The notes under the pieces are model-generated. The model searched no databases. It was not told the DNA's origin and saw nothing but the letters and a program-made list of their open reading frames with translations. DNA of 64,000 nt, taken from positions 620,001 through 684,000 of the forward strand of contig NZ_CP080575.1 of assembly GCF_019575955.1 (NCBI RefSeq). The letters are read 5' to 3'. Within the stretch, counting starts at the first letter, position 1. Each line of letters begins with the position of its first letter. Made by a program: the position numbers and the translations under genes. Positions 4,524-63,116 of the stretch are shown one piece after another. The DNA comes from Nesterenkonia pannonica. GTDB lineage: Bacteria > Actinomycetota > Actinomycetes > Actinomycetales > Micrococcaceae.

Positions 4524-5840
4524 CCGAAGCGGGCGTCCACTGCGTCGCCGTGCGCCGCAGCCCTCCTCGTCGGCGAGGCGCCGCACGTGGGCGCTGACCA
4601 TGCCCAGACCCTCTCTGCCGTAGTGGACCACCTGCTGGGACCGCATGAACGCCGTGACGTTGAGCCCTGAGGAATAGCGCGCCGCGCCGCCGGTGGGCAG
4701 AATGTGGTTCGACCCGGCGCAGTAGTCGCCCAGGGAGACGGGCGTGTAGGGGCCCACGAAGATCGCGCTTACCTCAGTGATCCGCTCCGCTACCCGGGCG
4801 TCGTCGCCCGTCATGATCTCAAGGTGCTCGGCGCCGTAGGCGTTGGCCACCGCGATCGCGGCGTCCAGGTCATCCACCACCAGCACCGCAGACTGCGAGC
4901 CTGTCAGCGAGGAGCGGACACGCTCGGCATGCTTCGTGACCGCGGCGCGCGTCTCCACGTGCTCGATCACGCGCTGGGCCAGGCTCTCCGAGGGGGTGAC
5001 CAGCACGGCGGCGGCGAGCTCATCGTGCTCGGCCTGAGAGATGAGGTCGGCTGCGATCAGGTGGGCCGGGGCCGTCTCGTCGGCCAGCACCATGATCTCG
5101 GTCGGGCTTACTCGGAATCGATGCCCACCGCGCCCTGGACGGCCCGTTTGGCCGTCGCGACGAAGATGTTGCCCGGCCCGGTGATGAAGCTGACCGGGGG
5201 CAGTCGAGCTCGCCCGCCTCGCTGCGCGCCCCGTAGGCCAGCATCGCGATCGCCTGGGCGCCTCCGGCCGCGTACACCTCATCGACGCCCAGCAGGTGCG
5301 CCGCCGCGAGGATCGTGGGGTGCGGCCACCCCCGGAATCCTTCTGGGGCGGAGAGGCGATCACCAGGGATTCGACGCCCGCCACTTGGGCCGGAACCACG
5401 TTCATCACCACTGACGACGGGTACACCGCCTGGCCGCCCGGCACATAGAGTCCCACGCGCGCCATCGGCACCCACCGGTTGGTGACCCTGGCGTCGGGCC
5501 CCGGGGTGATCACGGAGGCGGCGGGCAGCTGAGCGGAGTGCACCTCCCGGGTTCGGGCGATGGCAGTCTCCAGGGCCTCCCGGATCTGGGGGTCAAGGGC
5601 TGCTGCAGCCTCTGCGAGCACCTCCGCGGGGACCCTCAGGGCACTGGGCCTGACCCCGTCGAAGCGTTCCGCGAAGTCCATCATGGCTGCGGTCCCGCGC
5701 GTGCGCACCTCCTGCAGAATGGGCGCCACAGCGTCCGTGGTGCCGGTGATGTCCGTGCTTACGCGCGGGAGCAGCTCGGAGTCGGGGCTGAGCGTCAGCG
5801 ATGAGACGGCGGTGCCGCGCAGGTCTTTGAGGGTCAGCAA
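4520..5840 (-). CDS. hisD: Histidinol dehydrogenase
   Basis: Catalyses the last two NAD-dependent oxidations of histidine synthesis, histidinol to histidine. The reconstructed protein is about 435 residues, normal for HisD. Recognisable stretches are [63 protein letters not shown] (zinc and substrate region) and the C-terminal [12 protein letters not shown]. The TTG at 5840 is chosen because AGGAG sits four bases upstream and the usual LTLKDLRG follows. Several breaks occur. Two fall on GCCGGC-type anomalies (4767-4772 and 5106-5111), where the family predicts Ala-Gly but the text gives Val-Ser or a stop. A third probable one is at 5757. Other his genes are not in the window. Confidence 0.9.
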
Positions 5841-5939
5841 CGAATCTCCTGGGACGTGGCAGGGCGGGGTGATCAGAATCATTGTTCCAGCATTCGTGTG
5901 TTCTTTCCGCCAGCGACAGCGCCGTGGCAGGATGCAGCC

Positions 5940-7298
5940 ATGCTGAATGCCGATCCGAACCTGACCTCTGCGGGGCTGCGCCCGGCGAAGGCGGCGAGCC
6001 CGATGTGCTCGACGAGGCCGTCACCCAGATGGAGGAGCACGTCCCCGAGCAGTTCGAACAGATCGTCTCCGAGGCGGGACCTCTCATGGGGTGCTGCTCG
6101 GCGCATCGATCGTCGCGCTCTTCGCCGCTGTTGTCACGCTGACGATCCACGCGGTCTTCAAGCAGATCTTCCGCAGAAAGCCCGCCGTCCGACGGGCGGT
6201 CAGCCGAACGCGGCTGCCTCTGTTCTGCGTGCTGCTCTTCTCCGGCTCTGCCCTGAGCGTCTACTTCGCCCTTGACGCATGGTGGCAGGGCCCCGTCTAC
6301 GTGGCCCTGCTCATCGCGTTCATCGTCAGCGTGGCGTGGTGGGCGCTCAGGGCCGTCCAGGTGGTCAAGGCGATCATCCTCTCCAAATATGTGGGGAGGA
6401 CGAGCCCGACCCGGAGGACCGTCGAGGCCGGCGCGTGCAGACCCAGGTGGACCTCATCGGCAGGATCCTTGCTGCGATCATCATCACCGTCGCCGTGGCC
6501 GCCGTGCTGCTGCTCAACGAGAATCTGCGGGTCTGGGCGCCGGTGTGCTGGCCTCAGCAGGTGTGGTCTCTGTGGTGGCAGGCCTGGCCATGCAGTCCAC
6601 CCTGTCGAACGTGATCGCCGGGATCCAGCTGGCCTTCACAGACTCAATCAGAGTGGGCGACGTGATCGTCATCGAGGGAAACTTCGGCAACGTCGAGGAG
6701 ATCACGCTCTCGGCCGTCGTGGTGAAGTCATGGGACGGGCGCAGATTCATCTACCCCAGCGCGCACTTCGTCGCGACCCCTTCGAGAACTGGACCCGCGT
6801 GGGCACTGAGCTGATGGGCACCGTCGAGCCTCGATGTGGACTGGAGGGTGCCGATGGACGCCCTGCGGCAGCGTCTGAAGGAGACCGTGGGCGCCAGTGA
6901 GCTGTGGGACGGCGATACGTACAACCTGCAGCTGACCGAGGCCACGGAGGGCCACGTGCAGGCCCGTGTGGTCGTATCTGCCCGCAACTCCGCGGATCTG
7001 TGGGACCTGCGGTGCCTGATCCGTGAGGATCTCGTCAGCTTCATCCGCACTGAGCACCCGTACGCGCTGCTCACCCAAAGGATGCTCTACAGCAGCGAGG
7101 AGGCGCTCACCGCAGTGCCGGACAGCAGCCGGAGCGAGACGGCGCCGGAGATCCAGTCGGCTCCCCACCCCCAGCGAGGGCGTGGGGCTGTTCACCGGGT
7201 CGATCAGCGCCGTTCAGCGCAGCAGGGACCTGGTCGGACCTGGAGAGGACGCCTACCGCGAGCGCAAAGAGCGCCAGGAGGACCAGCATAAGGAGTAG
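5940..7298 (+). CDS. MscS-family mechanosensitive channel
   Basis: About 450 residues assembled from four frames. After an acidic N-terminus (EEHVPEQFEQIV) there are TM segments near 6090-6160, 6210-6265, 6295-6370 and 6455-6520. The pore-lining third helix and beta domain follow: VVAGLAMQSTLSNVIAGIQL, then DSIRVGDVIVIEGNFGNVEEITL and FIYPSAHFVATPFENWTR, the classic MscS core. The C-terminal 110 residues are soluble and polar. MscS channels release solutes on hypo-osmotic shock, consistent with the many compatible-solute genes nearby. The ATG at 5940 has CAGGA upstream. It is divergent from hisD, sharing about 100 bases of upstream DNA. Confidence 0.88.
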
Positions 7299-12580: not shown

Positions 12581-15053
12581 TGCCGACTCCCAGCACGACG
12601 ACCGAGCTTCTGTCGGCACTCGAGAAGGCCGCTCTGCTCAGCGGCGAGAATGTGTGGCAGACCCGGGAAATCCCAAGGCGGGGCTGCGCTCCCTGGTCCT
12701 CTCCGACGGCCCGCACGGCATCCGTCGGCAGGTCGGGGAGGGGGACCATCTCGGGCAGCACGCCTCCGAGCTTACCACCTGCTTCCCCACTGCGGCGACG
12801 GTCGCGAACAGTTGGGACCCCAGCTGGGCGAGAGGATCGGGGCGGCCCTGGGGGCTGAGGCAGTCGCACTGGGAGTCGACGTCGTGCTGGGACCGGGACT
12901 GAACATCAAACGGTCTCCGCTGTGCGGCAGGAATTTCGAGTACTTCTCCGAGGATCCGCTCCTGTCCGGCCGGTTCGCCGCCGCGTACGTCCGCGGCATC
13001 GAATCGGCCGGACCGGCAGCATGCCCCAAGCACTTCGCCGCGAACAGCCAGGAGACCCTGCGGATGATCGGGGACTCCGTGGTCGACGAGAGGACTCTGC
13101 ACGAGATCTATCTCGCAGGCTTCGAGATCGCCGTGCGCGAGGGGCGGCCGCGGACTATCATGTCCAGCTACAACCGGGTCAACGGGACCTATGCGCACGA
13201 GAGCGCGTATCTCCTGAACGACGTGCTTCGGCAGCAGTGGGGCTTCTCCGGCGCCGTGGTCTCTGACTGGGGCGGCAGCAATGAGGCGGTCGCCGCAGCG
13301 CGGTCCGGCGGGACCCTGGAGATGCCTTCGCCGGGGTGGGACTCAGTGAAGCAGCTGCTGGAGGCTCTGTCCCAAGGCACGCTTGCCCAGGAGGATCTCG
13401 ACGCCCGGGCCGACGAGATGGTGCGTCTGACTGAGTCTCTTCAGCGAAGCATCACGCCGCAGCCTGCTGTCGACGCAGAGGCCCACCATCGCCTCGCCCG
13501 GACAGCGGCAGCAGAGTCGGCGGTGCTGCTGAAGAACGAGCTAAGCAGATGCCGGCAGCGCCGAGACGGCGCCCATCCTTCCCTGAGGGAGGGCGCGCGG
13601 GTCGCCCTCGTCGGAGACTTCGCCCTGGCTCCCCGCTACCAGGGCGCAGGCTCCTCCCTGGTGAACCCCACGCGCCTGACCACAGGCGCTGAGGCAGCTG
13701 CGACCTCCGGTCTGGAGGTCGGGAACGGCTCAGGGGTTCCGCCGGGACGGCGAGCACAGTGCGGCCCTCGTCGTAGAGGCGGCAGCACTGGCCTCCGAGG
13801 CGGAGACCGTGCTGCTGTGGCTCGGGCTCGACGAGATGAGCGAGTCCGAAGGGCTCGACAGGGAGCATATGCGCCTGCCCGCGAATCAGCTGCAGCTGCT
13901 GGACGAACTCACCGCAGCGGGCACCCCCATCGTCGTCGTCCTCTCCGGCGGCTCCGCCGTAGAGGTCGGGTGGATGCCCCAGACCTCTGCGGTGGTCCAC
14001 AGCTATTTGTCGGGCCAGGCCGGGGCAGAAGGGGTGCTCGATGTGCTGACGGGCCGCACGAACCCCTCCGGCCGTCTGGCGGAGACCTACCCCACGTCGA
14101 TCGAGGACACTGCGACGGCTTACCGATTCCCGTCGAGGATCCCACGGTCGAGTACTTGAGGGTCCGCTGGTCGGGTACCGGTGGCACACCAGCTCAGGCA
14201 TACAGCCTGCGCTTCCCTTCGGCTTTGGCCTGAGCTACACGAGCTTCGACCTCGTGGGTCTGAGCGCCGATGAGCATGCGGCGGAGTGCACGGTGACCAA
14301 CACCGGCGATCGTGCTGGCGCCGAGGTGGTCCAGGTGTACGTCTCACGGCGCGGCGACTCCGGCGTTCTGCGTCCGGAGCGGCAGCTGGCAGGGTTCGAC
14401 AAGGTGCACCTTGAGCCAGGGGAGACACGCACTGTCCGCGTCCCCTGGGCAGCATGGCCTTTCGCCACTGGGACGCGTCCGTCCGACGGTGGGAGACGGA
14501 GTCGGGCCAGTGGGCGGTCATCGTGGGCCGCCATGCCGACGACACCGCGGCGGAGCAGACGGTGGAGGTGGTCGGCACCGTTGAGCGCGGAACCGGGGCC
14601 GCAGAGGAGCTTCAGGATCTGGTCGCTCAGGTTCGGGTCGCCCAGGGTCAGGCGCCGCCGGTGAGCCGGACGCCGCGAAGGATCCCCTGACGCTCAACCA
14701 CCCTCTCGGCGAGCTGCGCCGTGCGCAGCCCGATCGGACGACCTCGCGGGGGCGGTGCTGCAGAGGATGCTTGCACGTTCAGAGTCCAAGGGACAGCCGG
14801 ACCTGAACCTGCTCTTCCTCACCGGTATGCCGGTGAGGGGCTGGCGAAGATGAGCGGCGGTCTGATGAGCATCAGGATGGCCGAGCAGCTCGTCACCGTG
14901 CTCAACGGTCGGCACGTGACAGGCCTCGCCTACCTGGCGAAGCAGACCGTTCTGCACAAGGCATCAAGCCGCCGCACCTCCCGGGCGTTCCGCCGCGCAG
15001 CAGAGTCCGCAGCGAGCGGCCCAGCCACTGAGACGAAGGAGCGCTCATCGTGA
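12580..15053 (+). CDS. GH3 family beta-glucosidase-like glycoside hydrolase
   Basis: A canonical-order GH3 of about 820 residues over several frames. The N-terminal barrel has SDGPHGIR, GPGLNIKRSPLCGRNFEY, KHFAANSQE, SSYNRVNG and the nucleophile motif GAVVSDWGG. The second domain has LLKNE, VALVGDFA, GAGSS, LWLGLDEMSESEGLDRE and PFGFGLSYTSF, followed by fibronectin-III. The last 110 residues (GMPVRGLAKMSGGLMSIRMAEQ) form the C-terminal extension seen in actinobacterial GH3s. No signal peptide, so likely cytoplasmic. The start at 12580 overlaps the upstream stop (TGATG). GCCGGC anomalies occur at 12770 (expected PATCFP) and 13540. The substrate could be beta-glucosides or another beta-linked sugar. 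Confidence 0.88.
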
Positions 15054-16869: not shown

Positions 16870-19311
<2,442 letters not shown>

Positions 19312-25955: not shown

Positions 25956-27419
25956 GCGTACCGATCACAGCCGACCGTGAGAACGAAGTCGTCCAGGCCG
26001 CCCCCACCCAGCTCTTCATCGACGGTGAGTGGCGGGATGCGCGGGGAGGGCGCACTCTCGAGGTGTTCGACCCTCCACGGGCAGAGTGCTGACCCGTGCG
26101 GCGAATGCTTCCCCGAGGACGGCTGGGACGCGCTGAAGGCGGCCGAGGCGGCGCAGAAGGGCTTCGAGCGCACGCCTCCCCGTGAGCGCGCCGAGATGCT
26201 GATGAACGCGTTCCGGCTCATGCATGAGCGCAAGGACGACCTGGCCCTTCTGATGACCCTGGAGATGGGCAAACCGCTGGCTGAGTCGTACGGCGAGGTG
26301 AACTACGCCGCCGAGTTCTTCCGGCACTTCGCCGAAGAGGCCACGCGCATCAGCGGCGGATACCAGACGGCCCCCGCGGAGGGTCGCGGTTCCTCATCCA
26401 CAAGCAGGCGGTCGGGCCTCGATCCTCATCACCCCTGGAACTTCCCCTCGCGATGGGCACCCGCAAGCTCGGCCCCGCCATCGCCGCCTAAGCTGCACCA
26501 GTGTGCTGAAGTAAGCCGAGCTGACGCCGCTGTCCATGCTGGCGCTCGCCGACATTCTTCGCGAGGCTGGGGTCCCGGCCGGAGTGGTCAACATTCTGGT
26601 CACCTCCTCCGCAGGCGAGGTGGTCGAGCCGCTCATCCGTTCGGGCATCGCCCGCAAGCTCAGCTTCACCGGATCCACCCCGTCGGCCGCAGACTTCTGG
26701 AGCAGTGCTCCGAGAAGGTCCTTCGCACCTCGATGGAGCTCGGCGGCAACGCGGCGTTCGTGGTCTTCGAGGACGCTGACCTGGACAAGGCGGTCGAGGG
26801 CGCTGTGCTGGCGAAGATGCGCAACTCAGGGGAGGCGTGCACGGCGGCCAATCGCATCTTCGTCCACTCCCAGGTGATGGACGAGTTCTCCCAGAAGCTC
26901 GCGGAGCGTCTCGGGCGGATGAAGACGGGCCGCGGAGTCGATGAGGAGACCGCTGTCGGCCCCATGGTCGACGCGCGTCAGCGCGACAAGGTGGCTGAGC
27001 TCGTGGAGGACGCCGTGAAGTCCGGGGCGAAGGTCGTCCTCGGTGGGGAGCCACCGCGGGTGAGGGTACTTCTACCCGCCGACGGTGCTGACCGGCGTTC
27101 CCGAGAGCGCGCGCATGTGGTCCGAGGAGATCTTCGGACCGGTGGCCCCGCTGACGCCGTTCGACGATGAGAAGGAGGTCATCGACCGGGTCAACGACAC
27201 CGAGTACGGCTTGGTCAACTACGTCTTCACCGAAAGTCTGAACCGGGCCCTGCGGGTGGCCGAGCAGGTGGAGTCGGGCATGGTCGGGATCAATCAGGGG
27301 CTGTCTCCAACCCGGCGGCGCCCTTCGGCGGGATCAAGGAGTCGGGACTGGGCCGCGAGGGCGGCGACACCGGCATCGAGGAGTTCCTGGAGACCAAGTA
27401 CATCGGGATCGCGATGTAG
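25952..27419 (+). CDS. Aldehyde dehydrogenase, succinate-semialdehyde dehydrogenase type
   Basis: NAD(P)-dependent oxidation of an aldehyde to an acid, most like GabD. About 490 residues over several frames. Motifs: [58 protein letters not shown], the general base in [16 protein letters not shown], the catalytic Cys in [18 protein letters not shown] and the closing [15 protein letters not shown]. Two GCCGGC anomalies lie 25 bases apart at 26486-26493 and 26511-26516, where AAGCTSVLKPAELTP is expected. With GabT it would complete GABA to succinate. Substrate assignment is by resemblance. Confidence 0.85.
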
Positions 27420-28451: not shown

Positions 28452-29345
28452 ATGCCCAAGCCCACCATCCTCACGTGTGCGCTCACCGGCGCAAGCGACA
28501 CTGCTTAAGCAGATCCGAGCACGTTCCCGTGACGCCTCAGCAGATCGCCGAATCAGGCATCGAAGCTGCCCGAGCAGGTGCCTCGGTGATCCACATTCAC
28601 GTCCGCGACCCCGAGACGACGCAGGGTTCTCGCGAGACAGCGTTCTACGAAGAGGTGGTGGCTCGCCTCCGTGCATCCGACGTGGATCCGGTCATCAACC
28701 TCACGGCAGGCATGGGCGGAGACCTCGCCATCGACCCCTCCAGTCCTGCGGAGAGCCTGGGCCGTGTCGAGGGGACCGACCTCGTCTCCGGGTTGGAGCG
28801 GCTCAAGCATGTGGAGGTCATCCGACCGGAGATCTGCACCCTGGACTGCGGAACCCTCAACTTCGGCGACGGCAGCCAGATCTACGTGGGCACCCCGAGA
28901 TGATCAGGCAGGGCGCCGCTCGGATCAGGGAGCTCGGCGTGAAGCCGGAGCTGGAGCTCTTCGACACCGGCAATCTGTGGTTCGCCAACACCCTCTTTCA
29001 TGAAGGCCTCCTGGCCGACCCGCCCATGTACCAGCTGTGCATGGGCATCCCCTACGGCGCCCCGCCGATCCGGGACTGCTCGGCGCCATGGTGAACATGG
29101 TGCCAGAAGGTGTGGAGTGGACCAGCTTCGCCATAGGCCGCAATCAGCTTCCGTGGGTGGCCCAGTCGGTGCTTCTCGGCGGACACGTGCGCGTGGGGCT
29201 CGAGGACAACCTCTACCTGCGCAAGGGCGTCAAGGCAACCAACGCACAGCTCACCGCAGAGGTTAGCAGAATCGTCGACTCACTCGGCCGGAAGGTCGCG
29301 TCGCCGAATGAGGCGCGCGAGATGCTCGGGCTGGAGGTGCACTGA
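28452..29345 (+). CDS. Beta-keto acid cleavage enzyme (BKACE, DUF849), probable 3-dehydrocarnitine cleavage
   Basis: About 297 residues. ATG at 28452 follows GAAGGAGGAG. Family marks: TCALTGA near the N-terminus, [10 protein letters not shown], the zinc-site pattern [28 protein letters not shown], and the closing [18 protein letters not shown] enzymes use acetyl-CoA and a beta-keto acid to give acetoacetate and a new CoA ester. Members beside carnitine dehydrogenase act on 3-dehydrocarnitine and release betainyl-CoA. Its fused neighbour supports that. A GCTTAAGC anomaly at 28503 breaks the frame where TAGRS is expected; a homopolymer loss near 28900 breaks it again. Stop overlaps the next start. 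Confidence 0.87.
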
Positions 29346-41676: not shown

Positions 41677-43167
41677 TGAACACCGCATCGAAGACCTTGA
41701 CATCTCTTGCCCTTGTCTCCGCCCTGGCGCTGAGCGCCTGCGCCGGGGAGAACGGCGAGGAGGCTGAAGAGCAGAACGACGCAGACCAGAACGCCGCTGC
41801 GGAGGACACCGGCGCCGATGAGGCGGGGGAGCTGCGGACGCTGACGACGACGCTGATGCTGACGCCGAGGGGGAGGACGACATTGACCCCTCCGAGCGTG
41901 AGCAGCAGGAGGTTTAGCGGCGCTGAGCCGCGCGTGGCCGTCACCTATGACGGAGGCGCGGCAGTCCTCGACGGCGTCTCCCTGGACGTCATCGACGAGT
42001 TCGACGCCGACGGGTTCCTCCGGATCAACGAGGCCGGGGACGGCCGGCATGCCTTCCTGACTGAGGGCAGCAGCTTCCGCCTCCTGGACGCTTAAGCACC
42101 TGGGGAGAGCCGCACGGCGAGCACAACCACTACTACACCACCGAGCCCTATCTCTCGGATGTCACGGTGGACGGGGACACGCCCGCCCACGTCGTCTCCC
42201 ACGACGGCATCGGCACCCTGTTCTTCGACGGAACGGGGAGTACCGCTCCTTCGACCTGGCGGAGCTGGACGTCGAGGCAGAGAGCCTGGAGACCGAGAGC
42301 TACGAGAGCGAAGGCGAGCACCATGGTGTGGCCGTGGTGCTCGAGGACGGCTCACGCTTCGAAACTCTCGAGGACCGCTCGGGTGCGCGTTTCCTCGACG
42401 CTGACGGCGAGGAGATGGATCGGAACGAGAACTGCCCCGGCGTCCACGGCGAGGCGGCCGGGCCGGAGGGGTCATTGCGGTCGGCTGTGAGGACGGCGTC
42501 CTGGTCTGGGACGGCGAGCAGTTCGAGAAGCATGACACCGGCGAGGACTACTCCCGCATCGGAAACCTGTTCCCTCGGAGGGCTCTCCCATCTTCCTGGG
42601 CGACTACCGCACGGATCAGGACGGCGAGGAGCCGATGACCGAGGTGGCCCTGGTCAACACGGAGTCCGGCGACATCTCGACCGTCAACGTGGATTCCCCT
42701 ATAACTTCCGGAACCTGCAGCGCGGCCCCGACGGCGAGGCGCTGGTGCTGACCGAGGACGGCCAGCTCCACATCATCGACCCGGAGACTGGCGAGCACCT
42801 GGAGCACATCGACGTCATCGACGAGTGGACCGAGCCGGAGGATTGGCAGGAGCCGCGTCCGGCCATCCGTGCCCACGATGACCTCGTCTACGTCACGGAC
42901 CCGGACAGCCAGGAGATCCACCTCCTGGACCTGACCGAGGGCGAAGTGATCACCACCGCTGAGTTCGACTTCGAGCCCAACGAGATCATCGTCATCGACG
43001 GCCGCCCCGTCGAGGGTGTGTCCTCCGACTACGACGAGGACCACGAGGAGGACGATCACGGACACGGCGATGACGACCATGATCACGACGAAGACCACGA
43101 TGACGACGATCACGGCCACGACGATGATGGCCATGATCACGACCACGAGGATGACCACGATCACTGA
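41676..43167 (+). CDS. AztD-like zinc metallochaperone lipoprotein with Asp/His-rich tail
   Basis: About 497 residues over four or five frames. ATG at 41676 starts a signal LALVSALALSAC (lipobox LSAC). An acidic Asp/Glu/Ala stretch leads to a beta-propeller-like domain with repeated units (VAVTYDGGAAVLDG, HVVSHDGIGTLFFDGTGEY, VIAVGCEDGVLVWDGEQF). The EPHGEHNHYYTTEP segment is the AztD zinc-ligand region. The last 45 residues are almost entirely Asp, His, Glu and Gly. AztD passes zinc to AztC of the AztABC importer; no AztABC genes are adjacent. GCTTAAGC at 42090 breaks the frame where DAGTWGEPHG is expected. Confidence 0.82.
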
Positions 43168-43524: not shown

Positions 43525-45832
43525 CCGGCCGCCTGAAGGAGCAGACGACGGATGCGCCCGCCGAGGGCGAACGGATCGAGCTGGCCATCGGCGGGATGAC
43601 CTGCGCGGCCTGCGCCCAGCGGGTGGAGAAGAAGCTGAACAAGATCGACGGCGTGACCGCGCACGTCAACTATGCGACGGAGAAGGCATGGATCTCTGGT
43701 GGAGCTGACGATGTCCGAGAAGACTTCGTCAGCCAGCTGATCACCACGGTGGAGAAGGCGGGCTACACCGCTGAGCGCCCCCGCAGAGCGGGGTCGGGCA
43801 GGAGAGCGACGGGTCGCGCAGGGACATGAGGTCTCTGCGGCTGCGGCTCATCATCGCATCGGTGCTCTCCGTGCCGGTGGTGCTGTGGGCCATGGTTCCC
43901 GCCTCCCAGTTCGACTACTGGGCCTGGGCCTCCCTGGCGCTCACTGCGCCGGTGGTGCTGTGGGCCGGGTGGCCCTTCCACCGGGCTGCGGCGCTCAGCG
44001 CACGCAGCGCGACTGCCACCATGGACACCCTCATCTCGATAGGAACCCTCGCCGCGCTGGGGTGGTCCCTGTACGCCATGCTCTTCGGCGCCGCCGGGAT
44101 CCCCAGCTGCGCCACGAGTTCGTCCTCTTCGACACTCCCATCTGGGCTAAGCGGCGGCACCCACGGTGCCTACCACGTCTACTTCGAAGTGGCCGCGGCC
44201 GTCACCGCGTTCCTGCTCCTGGGCCGGTACCTCGAGAAGCGCGCGAAGTCCCAGGCCGGACAGGCCCTGCGCTCACTGCTGAATCTGGGCGCCAAGGAGG
44301 TCACCCTCATGCGCGGGGGCGGAGGTCCAGGCCCCGGCCAGCAGCCTGGCCGTGGGGGACGAGTTCGTCGTCCGCCCGGGAGAGAAGATCGCCACCGACG
44401 GCACGGTGCTCAGCGGTGCCTCCGCGGTCGACATGTCGATGCTCACAGGAGAGTCGGTGCCGGTGCAGGTCGCAGAGGGCGACGCCGTCGTCGGCGCCAC
44501 GGTCAACGCCTCCGGTAAACTGCTGATCCGGGCGGACCGGGTCGGCGGCGACACCCAGCTCGCCCAGATGGCCAAACTGGTGGAGGAGGCGCAGTCCGGC
44601 AAAGCTGCGGTGCAGAGGCTGGCCGATCGCGTCTCCGGCGTCTTCGTCCCCGCAGTGCTGCTGCTCGCGCTGATCACCCTGATCAGCTGGCTGGTCCTCG
44701 GCGCCTCGGGGAGGCGGCGTTCACCGCGGCCGTGGCTGTTCTGATCATTGCCTGCCCATGCGCCCTGGGGCTGGCCACGCCGACCGCCCTGCTTGTGGGC
44801 ACCGGGCGCGGCGCGCAGCGAGGCATCCTCATCAAGGGGCCGGAGGTGCTCGAGTCCTCCCGCCGGCTGGATGCGGTGCTGCTCGACAAGACCGGAACGG
44901 TCACCACGGGTGCGATGCACATGAACGCGCTCCACGTCGCCGAAGGCTTCTCGGAGCCCGAGGTGCTGCGTCTGGCCGGGGCGCTGGAGTCCTACTCGGA
45001 GCACCCCGTGGCCCGAGCGGTGACGAACGCGGCCCGCGAGGCCCACGGCTCGCGCGCCGGAACCCTCCCTGCGGTGGAAGCATTCACCAACCACGAGGGC
45101 CATGGAGTGAGCGGCGAAGTCCTCGGCGCCGACGGCGCTGCCCGGCGCGTGATGGTGGGGCGACGCGCCCTCATCGAATCGCAGGGGATGGGCATCCCCG
45201 GCGGCATCGGACAGCTCGCTGCGGCGGCCGAGGCAGGCGGCAGCACCCCGTGCTCGTCACGGTCGACGGTGTGCTCGCCGGTGTGGCGATCGTTGCTGAC
45301 GCGGTGAAGCCCACCAGTGCCGAGGCGGTGTCGCAGCTGAAGGCGCAGGGGGTGCGGTGCTGCTGCTCACCGGAGACAACGAAGGGGCTGCCCGACGAGT
45401 CGCCGACGAGGTGGGCATCGACGAGGTGCTCGCTGAGGCGATGCCCCAGGACAAGGTGGCTGCGATCAGGCGGCTGCAGTCGGAGGGCAGCCGCGTGGCC
45501 ATGGTGGGCGATGGTGTGAACGACGCCGCGGCCCTGGCCCAAGCGGATCTCGGCGTGGCCATGGGGACCGGCACCGACGTGGCCATCGATGCGGCGGACA
45601 TCACCATCATCCGAGGTGACCTGCGCAGCGTCGGAGAGTCCCTGAAGCTGGCCCGCCGCACCCTGCGGACCATTCGCGAGAATCTCTTCTGGGCGTTCCT
45701 CTACAACACGGCGGCGCTGCCTCTGGCCGCCCTGGGGCTGCTCAGCCCGATGCTCGCCGGTGCCGCGATGGTGCTCAGCTCCTGAGCGTCGTGGCGAACT
45801 CCCTGCGCCTGCGCCGATTCTCAGCTGTGTGA
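43521..45832 (+). CDS. copA: Copper-translocating P-type ATPase
   Basis: P1B-type Cu(I) efflux pump, about 765 residues over many frames. One N-terminal HMA domain ([12 protein letters not shown]), then TM helices from 43830, the actuator MLTGESVPV, the transport site [13 protein letters not shown], the phosphorylation site [36 protein letters not shown] and a final helix pair ending [21 protein letters not shown] at 44146 shifts the frame in the TM3-4 loop (IWAGGGTHG expected). The end at 45832 assumes one C lost near 45778 (SSLSVVANS). Translationally coupled to copZ. Confidence 0.95.
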
Positions 45833-45889: not shown

Positions 45890-46827
45890 GTGATTTCCCC
45901 GGGGCGCGGTGTGCTGCTGATGCTGGTCGGTACGTTCGCGCTGGCGGCGTCCGCCGCGATGATCGCCGCCATCGATTCGGAGCCGATGAGCGTGGCCGCC
46001 TGGCGCTGCCTGCTGGCCTGCCCCATGCTGCTGCCCTTCGCCCTGTGGGAGCTGCGACGCGTGGACCGTGCGGCCGCCCTGCCGCGGCGCACGCTGCTGG
46101 GCGCTGTCATCGGAGGCATCGCCATCGGCGCCGACTACGCGTTCTACAACACCTCCATCGTCGTCATCGGCGCGGCATCGCCACCGTGCTCATCAACATC
46201 CAGCTGGTGGTTCTGCCGCTGCTGGCATGGGCAGTCGAAGGCGTACGGCCCATGCGCTCGCTGCTGTGGATCGTTCCGATGATGCTGCTGGGGTGGCGTT
46301 TGCCGCGGGCGCCTTCGGGGACGAGGCGCTCAACTGGGGCGGGGTCGCAGCCGGTCTGGCAGCTAAGCGTCTGCTACGCGGCGTACCTGGCCATCATCCG
46401 GCGCACCGCCCCGCGCACTGTCCGTCCGGCCCCGTTCACCGTGCTGGCGGTGGTCTGCCTCTCGGCGGGCCTGGTGAGCCTGGCCGCTGCGGCGGGCACC
46501 GGCCGTCTGGTCATGCCCGCAGGATGGGAGGGCTGGGCGTGGTTCGCCGCTCTCGCACTCGTCGGGCAGGTCATCACGTACCTGAGCTTCAACATTGCCA
46601 TGACCGGCATCACGGAGGTGACCTCCTCAACCCTGATGCTGCTCAGCGCCGTATTCGCCGTGGTGCTCGATGTGATCATCTTCGGGCGGATCCCCACCGT
46701 CTGGCAGCTGCTCGGCTGCGGCCTCATCATCGCTTACGCCTGGTGCGCCTCCGTCCTCTCCGCCAATCGCCGGGTCAGGCAAGAAGCGGCTGTGCGGACT
46801 CCCAGATCTCCACGAATGCGGGGATGA
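45890..46827 (+). CDS. EamA/DMT-family transporter
   Basis: About 312 residues, ten TM segments in two EamA repeats: GVLLMLVGTFALAASAAMIA, AWRCLLACPMLLPFALWE, GAVIGGIAIGADYAFYN, ATVLINIQLVVLPLLAW, then after 46320 the second repeat with QVITYLSFNIAMTGITEVTS and LMLLSAVFAVVLDVIIFG. Substrate (amino acids, metabolites or drugs) is unknown. GTG at 45890. Frameshifts at 46163 (GGG to GG), near 46295, and a GCTAAGC anomaly at 46362 (AAGVCYAAYL expected). It converges on the LysE gene with a 53-base overlap. Confidence 0.85.
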
Positions 46828-47396
46828 GGGACGCCACCAGCAGCAGCGCCATGACCACGTTGAACACGCGCATGTGGGCTTACCTGCTGATGATGCGGCT
46901 TACGCCCACCCCCATCACGGCCCACGCTGTGGTGCAGGGGGCGCCGAAGACCATCGCGAACAGCGCGATGACCACCACCTCGGCGAAGAACGAGCCCCAG
47001 AACCCCGTGTAGGTCGACAGGGCCGCGATCACCAAGGTCCAGGCCTTCGGGTTGACCAGCTGAAAGAGCGCCATCTTCACAAAGCCCGGAGGCCTGCCCT
47101 GCGTGCCGGGTTGGACGTGCGTCGGAGCCGCGGCGATGTTCCATGCCAGCCACAGCAGGTAGACCACGCCGATGGGACGCAGTATGTCCAGCACGAACGG
47201 CCACTGGGCGAGGACCCCGCCGAGCCCCATCCCCACCAGGATGATCATCAGCGGGAACCCCACGTTCACCCCGGCGATGCACGGCACCGTTCGACGCAGC
47301 CCATAGTTGGCCCCGGACGCCAGCGCGATGGCGTTGTTCGGCCCTGGGGTGCCCGCGCTAAGCGAGGATGAAGGCGATCAGCGACAGAAACGACAT
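46775..47396 (-). CDS. LysE/RhtB-family amino acid exporter
   Basis: About 207 residues. From the ATG at 47396: SFLSLIAFILAGAGTPGPNN (the conserved TPGPN of this family), GVNVGFPLMIILVGMGLGG, VVYLLWLAWNIA and FQLVNPKAWTLVIAAL, all typical of LysE. Three altered GCCGGC sites occur: 47357 (GCTAAGC, makes a stop in FILAGAGTPG), 46898 (VGAGRII expected) and 46878, where GTAAGC on the coding strand creates a TAA after IISR. Repairing the last restores the C-terminal helix FNVVMALLLVASLIPAFVEI and a stop at 46775. Confidence 0.85.
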
Positions 47397-49821: not shown

Positions 49822-52800
49822 ATGAGTGAGATCACGTTCGAAGAGACCCGCACCGAGCTGGACGCCCTGGCAGGCGAGGCCGTTGAGCAGGTCCGCCGCT
49901 GGCTCCAGCGCACCCAGGCTGTCGGCGCCGAGCCCCACAAGGCCGCCAAGACTCTCTCCGCAGTCCTCTCGCATCCCACCGGCCTGACTTCACCGTCGGG
50001 TTCGTGGACCGCGTGATCCGCACCGAAGACACCAAGGCGGCGGCGTCCGCTCTGAAGGACCTCGGCGGGCTCGCGCCCGACACTCTCGACGCCCTGGAGC
50101 TGGCGCAGATCCGCGCCGGGTCGGCACTGGGCACGGCCCTGCCGCAGGTCGTCGTGCCTGCTGCGCGCCGAAGGATGCGATCGATGGTCGGGCACATGGT
50201 CGTCGACGCTCGCGACAAGCAGTTCGGCAAGGCCGTCGCCAAGATCAGGAAGGACGGCAACCGGCTCAACATCAACCTGCTCGGAGAGGCGGTGCTCGGC
50301 GAGCAGGAGGCCGACAAGCACCTCGAGGACACCGTCCGGCTGCTGCGGCGCGACGATGTCGACTACGTCTCGATCAAGGCCAGCTCCATCGCCAGCCAGA
50401 TCAGCATGTGGGGCTTCGAGGAGACCGTGGACTACGTGACCTCCCGGCTCGTGCCGCTCTACAGCGAGGCCGCTGCGGCCCCGGCGGGATCCAAGTTCAT
50501 CAACCTGGACATGGAGGAGTACGGGGACCTGCGCCTGACCATCGAGGTCTTCAAGCGGCTGCTCACGACCGGAGATGAAGCACTACGAGGGCGGCATCGT
50601 CATTCAGGCCTACCTGCCGGATGCTCTCGGCGCCGTCCAGGAGCTCACCGCGTTCGCCAATGAGCGAGTCGACGCCAGCGGCGCCGGCATCAAGATCCGC
50701 CTGGTCAAGGGTGCCAACCTGGCCATGGAGCGGGTGCACGGCGACATCCACGATTGGCCTGTGGCCACCTGCGAGTCCAAGGAGGCCAGCGACGCCAACT
50801 ACAAGCGGGTGCTGCACTGGCTGCTGACCGCAGAGCGCATGCGGGGCGTCCGCCTCGGCGTGGCTTACCAGAACCTCTTCGACATTGCCTTCGCCCACCT
50901 GCTGGGCGCACGGCGCGGCGTCACAGCCAGGCTCGAGTTCGAGATGCTGCAGGGCATGGCCGCCGAGCAGCAGCAGACCCTGCGCGAGGACGTGGGCCAG
51001 CTGCTGCTCTACGTCCCGGCCGTGCGGCCGGAGGAGTTCGACGTGGCCGTCTCCTACTTGGTGCGCTTACTCGAGGAGAACGCCGCGAGCGAGAACTTCA
51101 TGTCCGGGATCTTTGAGCTCAGTGTGGACGGCACAGGACGCGGCAGCGACGTGTTCATCCGCGAGGAGAGCCGCTTCCGTGCGTCCGTGAGCGCCCTGGG
51201 AGAGCTCCTGGAGCGCGACGGCGAGGACGCACCGGCTCCGAACCACACGCAGAGCCGGCTGGCTGAGGAGCAGGCAGGAGTTCCTTCTGCGAGCGAGGCA
51301 GGCGCGGCTGAGCTGCCGCCCTTCGCCAACGAGCCGGACACCAACCCCGCCCTGGAGCCCAACCAGCGCTGGACCGAGCAGGTCATGGCCAGGGCCACCC
51401 CGCAGTGGCTCGCGGAGCAGGCCGTGCCGCATGGTCATCGATGCTGCGGACGTCGACGCCGTCGTGGCAGGCGCACGGGCCGCCGGCGCCGAATGGGCCG
51501 CTCGGCCCGCGGCGGAGCGTGCCGGGATTCTGTACCGGGCTGCTGACATCATGGCGGCCCGTCGTGGTCACCTCGCCTCGATCGCGGCCGCTGAGGTCGG
51601 CAAATCCCTGGCGCAGTCCGACCCGGAGATCTCCGAGGCGATCGACTTCATGCGCTACTACGCTCACCGGGCCCTTGAACTGGACCAGGTGGAGGGGGCG
51701 TCCTTCGCCCCGGACCGTCTGGTGCTCATCACTCCGCCCTGGAACTTCCCGCTGGCCATCCCGACCGGCGGCACGGCGGCCGCCCTGGCTGCTGGGGCAG
51801 CTGTGATCCACAAGCCGCCCCAGCCGACGCCCCACTGCTCCATGGCGATCCTCGAATGCCTGTGGGACGCAGGAGTGCCGAGGGAGGTCCTGCTCGGCAT
51901 GCACCCGGACGAGGGCGACGCAGGCCGGGCTCTCGTCTCGCACGAGGGGTTGACCGCATCATTCTCACCGGCGCCTCCGAGACAGCGGCCCTGTTCCGCT
52001 CCTGGAAGCCGGAGCTGACCATCAACGCCGAAACCTCAGGCAAGGATGCCCTGGTCGTCACCCCCGCGGCGGACCGGGACCTCGCCGTGGCGGACCTGGT
52101 CACCTCAGCCTTCGGGCATGCTGGGCAGAAGTGCTCGGCGGCCTCACTGGGCATCCTGGTCGGCAGCGTCTACAGCTCCGAGCGGTTCCGGCGCCAGCTC
52201 GTCGACGCCGCCTCCTCCTTGGTGGTGGACTGGCCGCAGAACCTCTCCGCGACGGTGGGTCCGCTCACCGAGGACCCCAGCGACAAGCTGCGGCGCGCCC
52301 TGACCACGTTGGAACCCGGCGAGGAATGGCTTCTGCAGCCCCGCCAGCTGGACGAGACCGGACGGCTCTGGTCCCCGGGCATCAAGTCCGGGGTCAAGCC
52401 GGAAGCTTCTTCCACCTCACCGAGGTGTTCGGCCCCGTGCTGGGCCTGATGGAGGCTAAGGACCTCGACGAGGCCATCGCCCTGCAGAACCAGGTCGAGT
52501 TCGGCCTCACCGGCGGCATCCACTCCCTGGAGATTTCCGAGGTGGAGCGGTGGCTCGATGAGGTTCAGATCGGCAACGCCTACGTGAACCGAGGGATCAC
52601 CGGCGCGATCGTGCAGCGGCAGCCGTTCGGCGGATGGAAGAAGTCCTCCGTGGGGCTCGGCTCCAAGGTAAGCGGACCCAACTACGTGATGCTCTTCGGC
52701 CGGTGGAGCGACAGCACCGACATCGCCTCAGCGGCCCAGCTGCCGATGCCCGCGGGTGCGGCCGGAGACCTTCTGCGCAGCGCCTCGGAGAAGAATGCGC

Positions 52801-55028: not shown

Positions 55029-56491
55029 GTGCCTGCTTCGCTGATGCTCACCGACGCCCGGCTGCTCGACCGGGACGGAACCTTCGATGTGATGATCGAG
55101 GACGGCGTCGTCGTCGACATCTTTAGGGCCGGGTCCGAGTAGGCTGCCGGTGCTGAGACGCACAGCCTGGGAGGACGGTTCCTCGTCCCGGGACTCTGGG
55201 ACCACCATGTGCATTTCACCCAGTGGGTGGCTCAGCAGCAGCGCCTGGACCTGTCTGCCCATGCCTCGGCGGCCGAGGTGCTGGAGCTGGTGCGTGCCGC
55301 AGAGAAGCCCGTGGATGGGAAGCCCCTGGTCGGGTACGGGTTCCGGGACGGGCTGTGGGGGACGAGCCTTCCCAGGAGGACCTCGACGAGGCCGCAGGGG
55401 CGCTCCGGCGGTCATGGTCTCCGGGGACCTGCACTGCGCGTGGATCAGCAGCGCGGCGGAGAGGCTGCTCGACGTCCGGGCAGATCCCGACGGCCTGGTC
55501 CGGGAGGAGGCCTGGTTCGGCGCCCTGGAGAAGATTCAGAGCCCCGGCGAGCTCACCTCGGACCAGTACCGGGCCGCTGCCCAGCCGCCGCCGCCCGCGG
55601 AGTGGTCGGCATCGTCGAGTTTGAGAACACGGAGAACATCACGCTCTGGCCCCAGCGGGTGGACGACGGTGTGGACCGGCTGCGCGTGGAGATCTCCGTG
55701 TGGCCGGACAAGCTGGACGGCGCGATCGCGCGCGGGGTGAAGACGGGGACCCCTGGACAGGCTCGGTCTGGTGACCATGGGGCCGCTCAAAGTGGTGGTC
55801 GACGGTTCCCTGAACACCCGCACCGCCTGGTGCTGGGACCCCTACCCAGGGCTGGACCCAGCGCACCCGCACGCCTGCGGCATGGAGTCGGTCCCGATCG
55901 AGGACCTGAGAGGCCTGATGCAGCGGGCGCGGGACGCCGGCATCGGCGCAGCCATCCACGCCATCGGCGACCGGGCCAACACGGGGTGCTCGACGCCTTC
56001 GAGACCCTGGGGATGACGGGTTCGGTGGAGCACGCCCAGCTGCTGCGGCACGAGGATGTGGCTCGTTTCGCCGAGCTCGGCCTCGCCGCCAGTGTGCAGC
56101 CCGAGCATGCGATGGATGACCGAGATGTGGCCGACACGCACTGGAGCGGCCGCACTGATCGGGCCTTTGCCCTGAAGTCCCTGCACGACGCGGGGTCGAG
56201 CTGCGTATGGGGTCGGACGCCCCTGTCTCCCCGCTGGACCCGTGGTTCGCCATGGCCTCTGCGGTGCACCGCAGCCGCGATGACCGGCAGCCCTGGCACC
56301 CGGAGCAGAGCATCGACATCCGCACCGCGCTGAGGTCCTCAGCCCGGGGCCGCTCGGATGTTCAGGTGGGAGACGTCGCTGACCTTGCCGTTGTCGGCCG
56401 GAGCCCCTTCGACTGTGACCGGAACGAGCTGCGCACCATGCCGGTGGCCGCGACCCTGGTGGGAGGCCGCTTCACCCACTACGCGCTGTAA
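55029..56491 (+). CDS. Amidohydrolase family 3 (YtcJ-like)
   Basis: Metal-dependent hydrolase of about 487 residues. Beta-sandwich start LTDARLLDRDGTFDVMIEDG, then the metal-binding LVPGLWDHHVHFTQW, KVVVDGSLNTRTAW, IGAAIHAIGDRANTGVLDAF, SVEHAQLLRHEDVARFAELG and the metal Asp in MGSDAPVSPLDPWFAM. GTAGGC at 55139 creates a stop where GSEPAAGAE is expected and is a variant of the GCCGGC anomaly. Other breaks near 55370, 55410, 55580, 55750, 55985 and 56200. GTG at 55029 follows GAGAGGAC; ATG at 55044 is an alternative. The substrate (amide, carbamate or imide) is unknown. Confidence 0.82.
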
Positions 56492-57529: not shown

Positions 57530-59154
57530 ATGTCTGATGCCGCATACCCGCAGGGCGACGGTCCTCAGATCAGCCACAACAACGGAACTGTGTCCCCTCC
57601 TGAAGAGGGTGCCCGGCACGGCCGAACATCGTTGTCATCCAGGCGGATCAGATGGCCGCCCAATCTCTGGGCGCCTATGGAGACCAGGCAGCCCGAACGC
57701 CCACCATCGACGCCCTGGCCCAAGAGGGGGCGGTCTTTGACCGCGCCTACTGCAGCACTCCGCTGTGTGCGCCGTCCCGGGCCTCCATGATGACCGGGCG
57801 GCTCCCCAGCGAGATCGGCTGCTACGACAACGGCGATGACTTCACCACCTCCGAGCCCACCTTCGCCCACCGTCTGCGCCGGGCCGGCTACCACACCGCC
57901 CTCATCGGACGGATGCACTTCATCGGACCGGACCAGCACCACGGCTTCGAAGAGCGTCTCACCACGGACGTGTATCCGGCCGATCTGGACATGGTTCCTG
58001 ACTGGAACCTGCCCATGGAGGAGAAGCTGCAGTGGTACCACGACGCTGATGCGGTCTTCTCTGCAGGAGCTTCCAAAGCAACGGTGCAGCAGGACTTCGA
58101 CGACGAGGTGACCTGGCGGACCCTGCGCCACCTCAACGATCGGGCGCGGGCCAACCAGAGGCACCGGCGCGAGGGCCGCCAGGAGCAGCCGTTCCTGATG
58201 GTCACCAGCTACATCCACCCCCACGACCCCTACGAGCCCCGGCGGAGCACTGGGACAGATTCGACGATGTCGACATTCCTGACCCTGCCCACCCTGAGAT
58301 TCCGGATGCCGAGGCCGACCCGCACACCCACCGGCTGCGTGCCATGAGCGGGTTCGACAAGCGGGACCCCTCAGCCGACGAGGTGCGCAGGGCCCGTCGC
58401 GCCTACTACGCCGCGGTCAGCTACATCGATGATCAGATCGCTGCTGTGACCCAGCGGCTGGAGTACCTCGGCCTGGCCGAGAACACTGTGATCATGGTGA
58501 CCTCCGACCACGGCGACATGCTCGGGGAGAAGGGCCTCTGGTACAAGATGAGCCCGTATGAGAGGTCCTCCAGGGTGCCGATGATCATCACGGGGCCCGA
58601 GGCGCTGGTGCCGCGCGGCCGGTTCAGTACGAATGTTTCGCTGCTCGACGTCGCGCCGACGCTCAGCGCACTTGCCCTCGATGATCAGGGCGAGGCCGAG
58701 CTTCCGGGGCGCCCCTGCACGTCCTCGCCGAGCAGGAGACTGCCGAGGGGCCCACAGACCGGGATGTGCTTATCGAGTACTTGGCAGAGGGAACCCACCG
58801 GCCGCACCTCACGCTGGTGCGGGGCACCTGGAAGCTCTCCATCTGCCCAGGCGACCCGGACCACCTGTACAACCTGGCTGAGGATCCTGAGGAGCTGACC
58901 AACCTCGCTTAAGCAGCCCAGCGCACGCAGAGCAGCTGGAGCTGATGCGCAAGGAGCTCCACAGCCGCTACGGCCTGGAATCGCTGGAGCATGATGTTCT
59001 GTCCAGTCAGCGCCGTCGTCAGCTGGTCGCCGGCGCGCTGGCCACAGGGCAGCATCGAGCATTCGACTTCGCGCCGGGACCCGAGCAGCGCTACGTCCGC
59101 GGGGACTTCTGGTCAGCCTTGGAGCACGGCAAGATCGCAGATCCGGCACGATGA
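57530..59154 (+). CDS. betC: Choline sulfatase, type I (Cys-type)
   Basis: Hydrolyses choline-O-sulfate to choline and sulfate. About 541 residues. N-terminal metal site [19 protein letters not shown], the formylglycine motif [19 protein letters not shown] (CxPxR), then [34 protein letters not shown] and a C-terminal domain [20 protein letters not shown] with [16 protein letters not shown], which is the choline-sulfatase C-terminal signature. GCTTAAGC at 58907 puts a TAA where TNLAGSPAHAEQ is expected. ATG at 57530 follows GAAGGAGGG. No choline dehydrogenase is in the window, so betaine formation would need genes elsewhere. Confidence 0.88.
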
Positions 59155-60882: not shown

Positions 60883-61998
60883 ATGTCCGTCCAGACCGCA
60901 CCTCTGCGGAGCCGCGCACCGGCCCTTCCGGCAGCCGCTGCGCCTCGGGCTGCAGCCCAGCAGCAGACGCAGGCCGCGTCCCCCGCAGTGCGGGGCGCGT
61001 TCTCGTGATTCCTGCGGGCCTGACCCTGCTGGCAGGTCTTGCCGTCCTCAGCCTCTTCGTCGGATCCGGCGATCTGCCCGCCGCCCAGACCGCGGAGACG
61101 CTGCGCGCGTGGATCGCAGGTGAGCTTCCCCGGAGTCGCGGGGCACCGCGGAGCTTCTCGTGCTCGAGCGCCGCCTGCCGCGCACGGCCTTGGCGCTCGC
61201 CGCGGGCGCCGCCCTTGGTGCGGCAGGAGTCGTGATGCAGGCGCTGGCTCGCAACCCTCTGGCGGACCCCGGCCTGCTCGGCGTCAACGCAGGCGCCTAC
61301 ACGGCCGTGGTCTTCGGCTCCGCCGTGATGGGGCCCAGCGTCGGAACCGGCCATGTGTGGCTCGCCGTCCTCGGGGCCCTCGTCACGGCAGCCGCCGTCT
61401 ACGTCATCGGCACCTCGGGGCCTATGGGGGCCAACCCGGCCAAGCTCGTGCTCACAGGCGTCGCCATCGGGGCCGTCCTCTCCGGGATCAGCTTCGCCGT
61501 CACCCTGGCCATGCCCGAGGTCTTCGACCGGGTGCGCTTCTGGTCCGCCGGGTCGCTCCAAGGCCGCGGCGGCGAAGACGTCACAGCCATCCTGCCCTTC
61601 GTCGCCGTGGGGCTGCTGATCGCACTGGCCCTTCCTCGGGCCCTCAACGCCCTGGCGCTCGGCGACGACGCCGCCTCCGCCCTGGGAGCGCGCCCGGGTC
61701 TGACCCGGCTCGCCGGTCTGGCTGCCGTGACGCTTCTCTGCGGTGCGGCCACCGCCGCAGCGGGGCCGCTGAGCTTCATCGGCCTGCTGGTCCTCACGCC
61801 CTGCGGATGCTCGTGGGCCCCGATCACCGGTGGCTGCTGCCCCTGAGCCTGGTGGCCGCTCCGGCTCTGCTGCTGGCGGCCGACATTCTGGCGCGCGTCG
61901 CCGCACCCTCCGAGCTGCCTGCCGGTGTGGTCACCGCATTTCTCGGAGCGCCCATGCTGATCTGGCTGACTCGACGCAGGGCAGTGAGAGAGCTGTGA
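60883..61998 (+). CDS. FecCD-family siderophore/haem ABC permease 1
   Basis: About 372 residues in four frames. After an Ala/Arg-rich N-terminus of about 40 residues come nine to ten TM helices with family marks LERRLPRTALALAAGAALGA, QALARNPLADPGLLGVNAGA, LTGVAIGAVLSGISFAVTL, SLQGRGGEDV, DDAASALGAR and GPLSFIGLLVPH, the last being the coupling-helix region that meets the ATPase. ATG at 60883 follows GAGGAAAC. Coupled to permease 2 by a GTGA overlap. Confidence 0.9.
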
Positions 61999-63116
61999 GC
62001 GCCGCCGCCCCGAGAGCCCCGCGCGCCACCAGCATGCGGGGTCCGATCCCACCCAGCAGATGACGGTCCCCGGGCTGCTCACGCTGCGCAGCGGCGGGCG
62101 AAGCGCACGGCTGCACCTGCGCACCCTCGTCGTCCTCCTCATCGTCACGGCAGTCGCCGCCGGCGTCGGCTGGTGGAACCTCATCAGCGGATCCGCATCA
62201 CTGGGCGCCGCCGAAGCGCTCGCCGCCTTCACCGGGCAGGCGGACGACGGCACCGCACGCGTCATCCTCGACTGGCGCGCCCCGCGAGTGGTCTTCACCC
62301 TGGTCGGCGGGGCCGCGCTCGCCGTGGCCGGGGCAGTCTTCCAATCCCAGACCCGGAATCCCCTGGGCAGCCCGGACATCATCGGCTTCTCCACCGGCGC
62401 CTACACCGGGGTGCTCGTGGCGGCCTCCATCGGCCTCGCTTAAGCATCTGGACCGCCCCCATCGCCGCCGTCGTCGGCGGACTCGGCACCGGCGTCGCCG
62501 TCTATCTGCTGGCGGTCCGACGCAGCGCCGGCGGCATGGGTGCGACGGGCATGCGCCTGATCCTCGTGGGCATCGGCATCAGCATCTTCCTGGGTGCGCT
62601 CAACACCTACCTCGTCACGGTGCTCGATCTTGAGACGGCTATGTCGGTCGCCAGCTGGGGAGCCGGGTCGGTCAACACAGTGGGCTGGGCGCACGCAGCG
62701 CCTCTGCTGGCGCTCTGTGCGGTGACCTTCCCTGTGATGCTGGCGCATGCGCGCGACATGACCCTGATCGAGATGGGCGATGACACCGCCTCCGCTCTGG
62801 GGATCCGCGCCGAGCGTGTGCGTCTGGTCCAATTCGTCTGCGGTGTGCTGCTGGTGGCGGCGGTGACGGCCGGGGCGGGACCGATCGCGTTCATCGCGCT
62901 GGTGGCTCCCCAGGTGGCGCTTCGCCTGACCGGCGCAGGAGCGTCCAGCTCATCCCGGCCGCAGCGATGGGTGCGCTGCTGCTGACGGCCGCAGACGCCG
63001 TCGCGCGCACGGAGCCGATGCTTACCAACCTTCCCGTCGGCGTCGTGACGCTGATCCTCGGCGGGGCATACCTGGTCTGGCTTCTCATCAGCATGAGCAG
63101 AAGGAGGACGGCATGA
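61995..63116 (+). CDS. FecCD-family siderophore/haem ABC permease 2
   Basis: About 373 residues over four frames. Family marks: [86 protein letters not shown] and [20 protein letters not shown], ending [25 protein letters not shown] at 62438 creates a TAA where IGLAGIWTAPI is expected, and GCTTAC at 63020 replaces the expected MPANLPVG. GTG at 61995 overlaps the upstream stop; its own stop overlaps the ATPase ATG. Confidence 0.9.

Follow-up and report, generated by a model that had tools for sequence, protein, structure and literature searches.

TAAG words in place of GCCGGC across the Nesterenkonia pannonica genome: a probable nanopore miscall of a methylated NaeI-type site

Why does a genome of Nesterenkonia pannonica spell GTAAGC or GCTTAC where a close relative spells GCCGGC? 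The question was raised by a 64,000-nucleotide stretch of DNA (the window; positions 620,001-684,000 of one 2.70-Mb contig), in which a sequence-only reading had listed 24 sites as former GCCGGC now holding words built on TAAG or its complement CTTA. The observation is confirmed as real and genome-wide. It is accompanied by a locus in which a NaeI-family endonuclease, a C5 methyltransferase and Vsr are encoded side by side. We hold with high confidence that GCCGGC is methylated in this organism and miscalled by a nanopore basecaller, the change being an artefact of reading. The TAAG words are very likely absent from the living genome.

The study sample comprised 464 kb of the N. pannonica genome (G000), namely the window and 20 further stretches, 21 pieces in all. 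Two congeners, G013 and G002, supplied 400 kb each for expected word counts. Sites were compared one by one over 241 kb aligned to G013 at 79% identity; G002, with 67 kb aligned, served for word counts, run counts and as the training set for codon usage. Frame calling by codon usage was left unused, as 156 of 238 test calls were correct and most sites received no call.

How strong is the loss of GCCGGC, and what has taken its place? No 6-mer of the window falls further below a Markov expectation than GCCGGC, which has 25 sites against about 70 expected (z = -5.4 on single counts, -7.7 if palindromes are doubled; the next lowest word stands at -3.0). The 464 kb hold 114 copies, against 893 and 832 expected from the two congeners. 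Over the same sample GTAAGC and GCTTAC together number 226 against 16 and 32 expected, and GCTTAAGC numbers 32 against 1 and 0. The largest gainers relative to the two congeners were GCTTAC/GTAAGC, TAAGCA, GCTTAA, CTTAAGC and GCTTAAGC; GCTAAGC and GCTTAGC were likewise enriched. The sequence-only reading had placed the effect between 4767 and 63025 of the window, a range that proved too narrow, since the words occur in all 21 sampled pieces and genome-wide. It had also suggested an assembly-wide count, which gave 686 GCCGGC and 1,238 GTAAGC/GCTTAC (GTAAGC 506 times on the forward strand and 732 on the reverse); the whole genome of G013 has 4,550 and 174. The effect is partial, as had been proposed, with an intact share of 16-23% overall. 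The range of the GCCGGC/CGGCCG ratio in the genus predicts 3,060-3,820 GCCGGC for the whole genome, an intact share of 18-22%, and subtraction of the 686 intact copies leaves an estimated 2,370-3,130 wrong sites. At conserved aligned sites, the intact share was 15/93 (16%) when set against a wide list of author-chosen TAAG-like words (78 sites at G013 GCCGGC, 66 inside G013 open reading frames and 12 outside) and 15/66 (23%) against the strict TAAG/CTTA class of 51 sites.

Site-by-site alignment shows where the new words fall. GCCGGC of G013 was kept identical at 15 of 475 sites (3%), compared with 12-29% for 11 other motifs (twelve were printed, two of them mutual reverse complements). It was the least conserved of the 35 all-GC 6-mers (mean 17.5%; the other 34 ranged over 7-24%) and, of 581 6-mers represented at 150 or more places, only the homopolymer word GGGGGA was conserved less. 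A strict TAAG/CTTA word faces 51 of the 475 GCCGGC sites, as against 0/364 for CGGCCG, 1/331 for GGCGCC and 0/556 for GACGGC. When 15 control words were pooled, such words appeared at 85 of 6,323 places; 77 of the 85 lay on CGCCGG (45/908), GCCGGG (24/670) and GCCGGA (8/480), which we provisionally take to reflect overlap with GCCGGC or a distance of one base from it. Viewed from the other side, GCTTAC/GTAAGC is identical in G013 at 0 of 120 places, which makes it the least conserved among words that have 60 or more aligned places; the word it faces most often there is GCCGGC (36/120).

The substitution also disturbs reading frames. Of the 66 TAAG-like words at conserved sites in G013 open reading frames, 14 cause a frameshift and 52 leave the frame intact. 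A frame test based on protein alignment backs frameshifting weakly: it made no call for 23 of 32 GCTTAAGC and 91 of 162 GCTTAC sites, and at called sites the alignment resumed in another frame for 6/9 GCTTAAGC, 6/71 GCTTAC and 4/35 GTAAGC, beside 4/65 for intact GCCGGC, 10/249 for CGGCCG and 21/273 for GGCGCC. The earlier statement that even-length variants keep the frame fails, because only six-base outcomes do so; GCTTAAGC and GCCTAAGC add two bases. In-frame stops inside protein alignments were found at 2/31 GTAAGC and 5/65 GCTTAC sites, with a single one among the six-base TAAG-like words at conserved sites. As they are rare, stop codons are no main argument here.

What decides which word is written at a given site? 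The flank test counted intact GCCGGC, GCTTAC, GTAAGC and GCTTAAGC; no separation was made of rarer outcomes or of the few GTAAGC that are genuine. With no 3' pyrimidine on either strand, 70/119 sites keep GCCGGC; with one on at least one strand, 44/253 do (p 3e-15). A 3' pyrimidine on the top strand only gives GCTTAC over GTAAGC at 75:8, and on the bottom strand only at 9:32 (p 3e-14). In symmetric contexts the contig strand is favoured, 78:24. The sequence-only reading had remarked that the outcomes are reverse complements of each other; the 162 GCTTAC and 64 GTAAGC of the 464 kb bear this out and follow both the flank, strand by strand, and the contig-strand preference. This rule is as expected of single-strand reading, and GCTTAAGC is what fusion of both strands' reads would give. 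There is no reason why a biological process working on duplex DNA should favour the contig strand, whereas a consensus of two disagreeing read strands may.

The contig-strand excess of GCTTAC over GTAAGC (732:506 genome-wide) is uneven by stretch, for instance 14:0 in L104, 11:0 in L115, 9:0 in L116 and 6:6 in L117. Strand coverage or polishing tie-breaking may vary along the contig.

A second feature of the assembly concerns homopolymers. Runs of at least six C or G are absent from the 464 kb of N. pannonica, whereas the 400-kb samples of G013 and G002 have 78 and 21, and GGGGGA is retained at 2 of 159 places aligned to G013. A lack of long G/C runs is a usual mark of an uncorrected nanopore consensus. 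Together with the strand-flank rule, it fits nanopore as the probable platform. Homopolymer truncation will add further frameshifts.

Does the genome encode anything that would mark GCCGGC? NaeI recognises and cuts this word. A review, cited here from part of its text as are the other papers below, prints GCCGGC for NgoMIV and another, evidently misprinted, site for NaeI (PMC4081073). A search for a cytosine methyltransferase of GCCGGC specificity had been suggested, and a C5 methyltransferase was found adjoining a NaeI-family gene, with Vsr alongside, at G000:C1:174.7-177.1 kb (L096 4673-7084). In a profile search the endonuclease matched PF09126 as four pieces above the cut-off (best E 2e-30), because its frame is broken, and the sequence of one of its fragments matches 1ev7, the NaeI chain of the crystal structure (E 2e-11). 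The methyltransferase matches TIGR00675/PF00145 (E 2e-53) in two parts, the match ending about 0.2 kb from the start of the NaeI-family gene, and the Vsr gene (TIGR00632, E 1e-35) lies just beyond the pair. Judging by the neighbouring gene, this genome should carry a system that protects GCCGGC by cytosine methylation.

The same arrangement recurs in the family. Among 395 genomes sampled from it, 15 match PF09126, N. pannonica included. Relatives of the methyltransferase, at 58-74% identity, lie near NaeI in nine of ten near-complete NaeI loci, each searched as a stretch of about 3.8 kb off whose end several of the matches run; at the tenth, L171, none was found within its stretch. Vsr stands beside NaeI also at the G001 and G202 loci and not at the other, short, loci. 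G001 (L172, L176) holds pieces of NaeI, methyltransferase and Vsr at one place, and its GCCGGC is not depleted. The NgoMIV family PF09015 had no match in N. pannonica, and no control genome matched it either.

N. pannonica has a second C5 methyltransferase, at G000:C1:1761148-1761705 (L097 4675-5592, minus strand). By eye, its neighbours are a single-stranded-DNA-binding-like protein and other short genes, and the region is perhaps phage-derived. It was set aside as the cause, since its identity to the methyltransferases of the five NaeI loci where it matched is 26-30% in four and 24% in the fifth. A search for a second footprint recognised none: the words inspected (GACGCA, CTGCGA and AGCCTC, for example) had ordinary-looking substitution spectra.

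How might the words arise? At most TAAG-word sites the true DNA would be GCCGGC. The NaeI-type C5 methyltransferase, to judge by the gene pair, would methylate its cytosine on both strands. Native DNA would then have been read by nanopore, and a basecaller untrained on the modification would interpret the altered current wrongly on either strand. Reads of both strands would show GCTTAC, which appears as GTAAGC on the contig when it comes from the opposite strand. At consensus, one strand's word would be retained or both fused into GCTTAAGC, GCTAAGC or GCTTAGC. Modified-base miscalling at a NaeI/NgoMIV-type site had been put forward by the sequence-only reading, and it is supported by the NaeI locus, the missing G/C runs and the strand-flank rule; its last steps are inferred.

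How do the 24 sites of the window look individually? All 24 words are present in the DNA, and 21 of the sites align to G013, whose opposing words were read from the alignment by eye. Taken singly, 13 are supported as former GCCGGC and 8 are not. In the lines below, coordinates are those of the window, no strand is assigned, a plus sign gives added bases, and gene names are the labels of the sequence-only reading. G013 has exactly GCCGGC at five sites:
28503-28510: GCTTAAGC (+2), BKACE
31515-31520: ATAAGC, dnaK
31985-31990: GTAAGC, dnaK
51065-51070: GCTTAC, putA
58907-58914: GCTTAAGC (+2), betC
At eight sites G013 is one base from GCCGGC:
26486-26493: GCCTAAGC (+2), ALDH; G013 GCGGGC, two bases shorter
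26511-26516: GTAAGC, ALDH, with a stop in frame (LK*AEL); G013 GCCTGC
29423-29428: GTAAGC, carnitine dehydrogenase; G013 GGCGGC
34444-34449: GTAAGC, dnaJ; G013 GCGGGC
44146-44152: GCTAAGC (+1); G013 GCAGGC
46362-46368: GCTAAGC (+1), EamA; G013 GCGGGC
52668-52673: GTAAGC, putA; G013 GCGGGC
63020-63025: GCTTAC, FecCD; G013 GCCCGC
At eight more the alignment gives no single-site support, and all but the first are weak sites:
4767-4772: GCTTAC, hisD; G013 TCCAGC
29505-29510: GTTAGC; G013 GGCGCC
36593-36599: GCTTAAC (+1); G013 GCACGC, one base shorter
46878-46883: GCTTAC, LysE; G013 GTGGGC
46898-46903: GCTTAC, LysE; poor alignment to G013
47357-47363: GCTAAGC (+1), LysE; G013 CCCAGC, one base shorter
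50863-50868: GCTTAC, putA; G013 GCGGGT
62438-62445: GCTTAAGC, FecCD; G013 differs
Three sites are unaligned to G013 and so have no single-site support:
12770-12775: GCTTAC, GH3
42090-42097: GCTTAAGC (+2)
55139-55144: GTAGGC, a weak marker
The window holds further words beyond those first listed:
18705-18712: GCTTAAGC, a word seen 32 times against 0-1 expected per 464 kb
13540-13546: GCTAAGC, an enriched word, adjoining the intact GCCGGC at 13551
4518-4524: GCTTAGC, also enriched
941 (941-946), 4212, 5106, 5757, 8922, 10856, 11464, 11687, 11971, 14118, 40625, 46732 and 59374: 13 additional GCTTAC
1704 (1704-1709), 30705, 39946 and 54344: 4 additional GTAAGC

The congeners lead one to expect 2-5 GTAAGC/GCTTAC per 64 kb, so a few of those in the window may be genuine. 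The listed dnaK, putA and hisD sites are six-base words; insertions lie elsewhere, for example at 26486, 28503, 46362 and 58907. Four GCCGGC had been cited as intact, of which the one at 6427 is correctly placed and three were off by a few bases (true positions 13551, 20462 and 23363). GTAGGC, named earlier among the outcomes, turned out a weak marker: GCCTAC/GTAGGC is only mildly enriched in the 464 kb (340 against 245, about 1.4-fold), perhaps through a milder miscall of GCCGGC.

Several points weigh against methylation miscalled by a nanopore basecaller. The frames of the NaeI-family and methyltransferase genes are both broken in the assembly, which may be assembly error or true decay. G001 too has NaeI fragments only, and gene pieces in a genome 99% complete suggest possible decay of the system in that lineage. 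The best PADLOC model for the methyltransferase is the DruM cytosine methylase (E 9e-126), although the neighbours of this DruM-like gene are the NaeI-family gene and Vsr; its nearest solved relative is M.HhaI, and its own sequence names no motif. GCCGGC may also be truly scarce to some degree in the species, since the excess of TAAG words, about 276 per 464 kb, falls short of the GCCGGC deficit relative to both congeners. Published errors at methylated cytosines are mostly one-base changes, C-to-T or G-to-A, whereas three bases change here (PMC12506013). Finally, in a nanopore study of Neisseria gonorrhoeae, 5-methylcytosine (5mC) was reported at 32 of 33 GCCGGC in the pilin loci, and the part of the paper at hand mentions no miscall (PMC12871193); the effect must then depend on the pore, the basecaller version or the modification.

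Could the miscalled modification be something other than plain 5mC, such as N4-methylcytosine or a larger group? The miscall alters three letters out of six, beyond the usual C-to-T error, and about four in five sites are wrong in the consensus; a bulkier or multiple NaeI-associated modification at GCCGGC would account for both, and we give that version a slim chance. The methyltransferase beside NaeI, however, is of the C5 class by its TIGR00675 and PF00145 matches, and the N4/N6 family PF01555 has no match in the genome (other N-methyltransferase families were not searched). Published data also show that 5mC alone gives dense consensus errors (PMC6591954). A modification other than 5mC is accordingly improbable.

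Could the basecaller simply be weak at unmodified GC-rich words? The homopolymer truncation in the same assembly gives this idea some footing. Yet the equally GC-rich GCCGGT, CGGCCG, GGCGCC and GCCGCC are identical in G013 at 13-27% of places against 3% for GCCGGC, and the non-homopolymer word that fails is the NaeI site in a genome that carries NaeI. Plain weakness is very improbable.

The remaining explanations place the change in the living genome, and on these the NaeI-bearing relatives have a bearing. There are 13 of them with NaeI-family matches, 10 near-complete and 3 partial (G202, below the cut-off, was excluded). Their GCCGGC/CGGCCG ratios are 0.85-1.70 against 0.25 in N. pannonica, so NaeI alone does not remove GCCGGC. 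The GTAAGC/CGAATG ratio is 1.19 in N. pannonica, and the highest values among the NaeI-bearing relatives, all of other genera, are 0.69, 0.63 and 0.61. A real mutational process, for example misrepair of NaeI cuts or Vsr nicks that leaves TAAG scars, could draw on endonuclease, methyltransferase and Vsr genes lying together and on insertions of one or two bases such as end joining can leave. It is hard to credit, since it would have to confine thousands of sites (the 2,370-3,130 estimated above) to few outcome words, shift frames at conserved sites, obey one strand's 3' neighbour and prefer the contig strand both genome-wide and in symmetric contexts; it also leaves the absence of G/C runs of at least six aside, and no other searched NaeI-bearing genome reaches the GTAAGC ratio seen here. 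Biological avoidance, in which selection by NaeI purged GCCGGC through ordinary mutation, is scarcely believable even though a NaeI-type system is present, GCCGGC is strongly under-represented and the TAAG words leave part of the missing copies unaccounted for: it predicts mostly single-base synonymous changes where a three-base change to one word is observed, 14 of 66 conserved sites break the frame, and the 13 NaeI-bearing relatives are undepleted, which upholds the earlier view that selection is not the cause.

If GCCGGC is methylated and misread as argued, what follows? One modified motif appears to lie behind all of the estimated wrong sites in a public genome. Miscalls and homopolymer truncation together probably explain why the completeness of the 2.7-Mb contig is estimated at only 62.5%. 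Residues, stop codons and frameshifts taken from this assembly are not trustworthy. Furthermore, finished public assemblies may hold readable footprints of their own methylomes, and from pairs of words over- and under-represented relative to related genomes, methyltransferase specificities could be predicted with no need of raw signal. In N. pannonica a GCCGGC system was predicted from the footprint before the NaeI-type locus came to light.

How does this case compare with known systems? The class of error is known. The GCCGGC motif and the TAAG spelling were not met among the literature matches listed: no title or abstract opening among them names GCCGGC read as TAAG words, and no paper matched that joins GCCGGC with nanopore basecalling. 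5mC at GCCGGC itself has been reported in other bacteria (PMC8565308; PMC12871193). In Enterobacteriaceae, Dcm sites (CCWGG, 5mC) accounted for about 70% of nanopore consensus errors with the basecallers then current (PMC6591954). N. pannonica resembles that case in having C5 methylation, as proposed here, at one motif with dense consensus errors, and differs in the motif, in the three-base change or insertion and in the flank rule. R10 assemblies of Neisseria meningitidis carried errors at 5mC, and indels fell on methylated bases or beside them; single-nucleotide differences were nearly all G-to-A or C-to-T, 311 typing-locus mismatches were counted in 23 isolates, and libraries made by polymerase chain reaction had no errors counted as methylated (PMC12506013). 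In Listeria, the Modpolish study found five strains with 1,533-5,670 mismatches, and whole-genome amplification brought a great improvement; the type of modification was unknown there, whereas the NaeI-type system of N. pannonica offers a cause (PMC10687267). The locus itself is like the NaeI restriction-modification system in its NaeI-family endonuclease, matched by profile and by 1ev7, and its adjacent C5 methyltransferase, and unlike it in the frames broken in the assembly and in the adjoining Vsr gene. N. pannonica illustrates a known artefact in striking fashion, and here the footprint led to a restriction-modification system.

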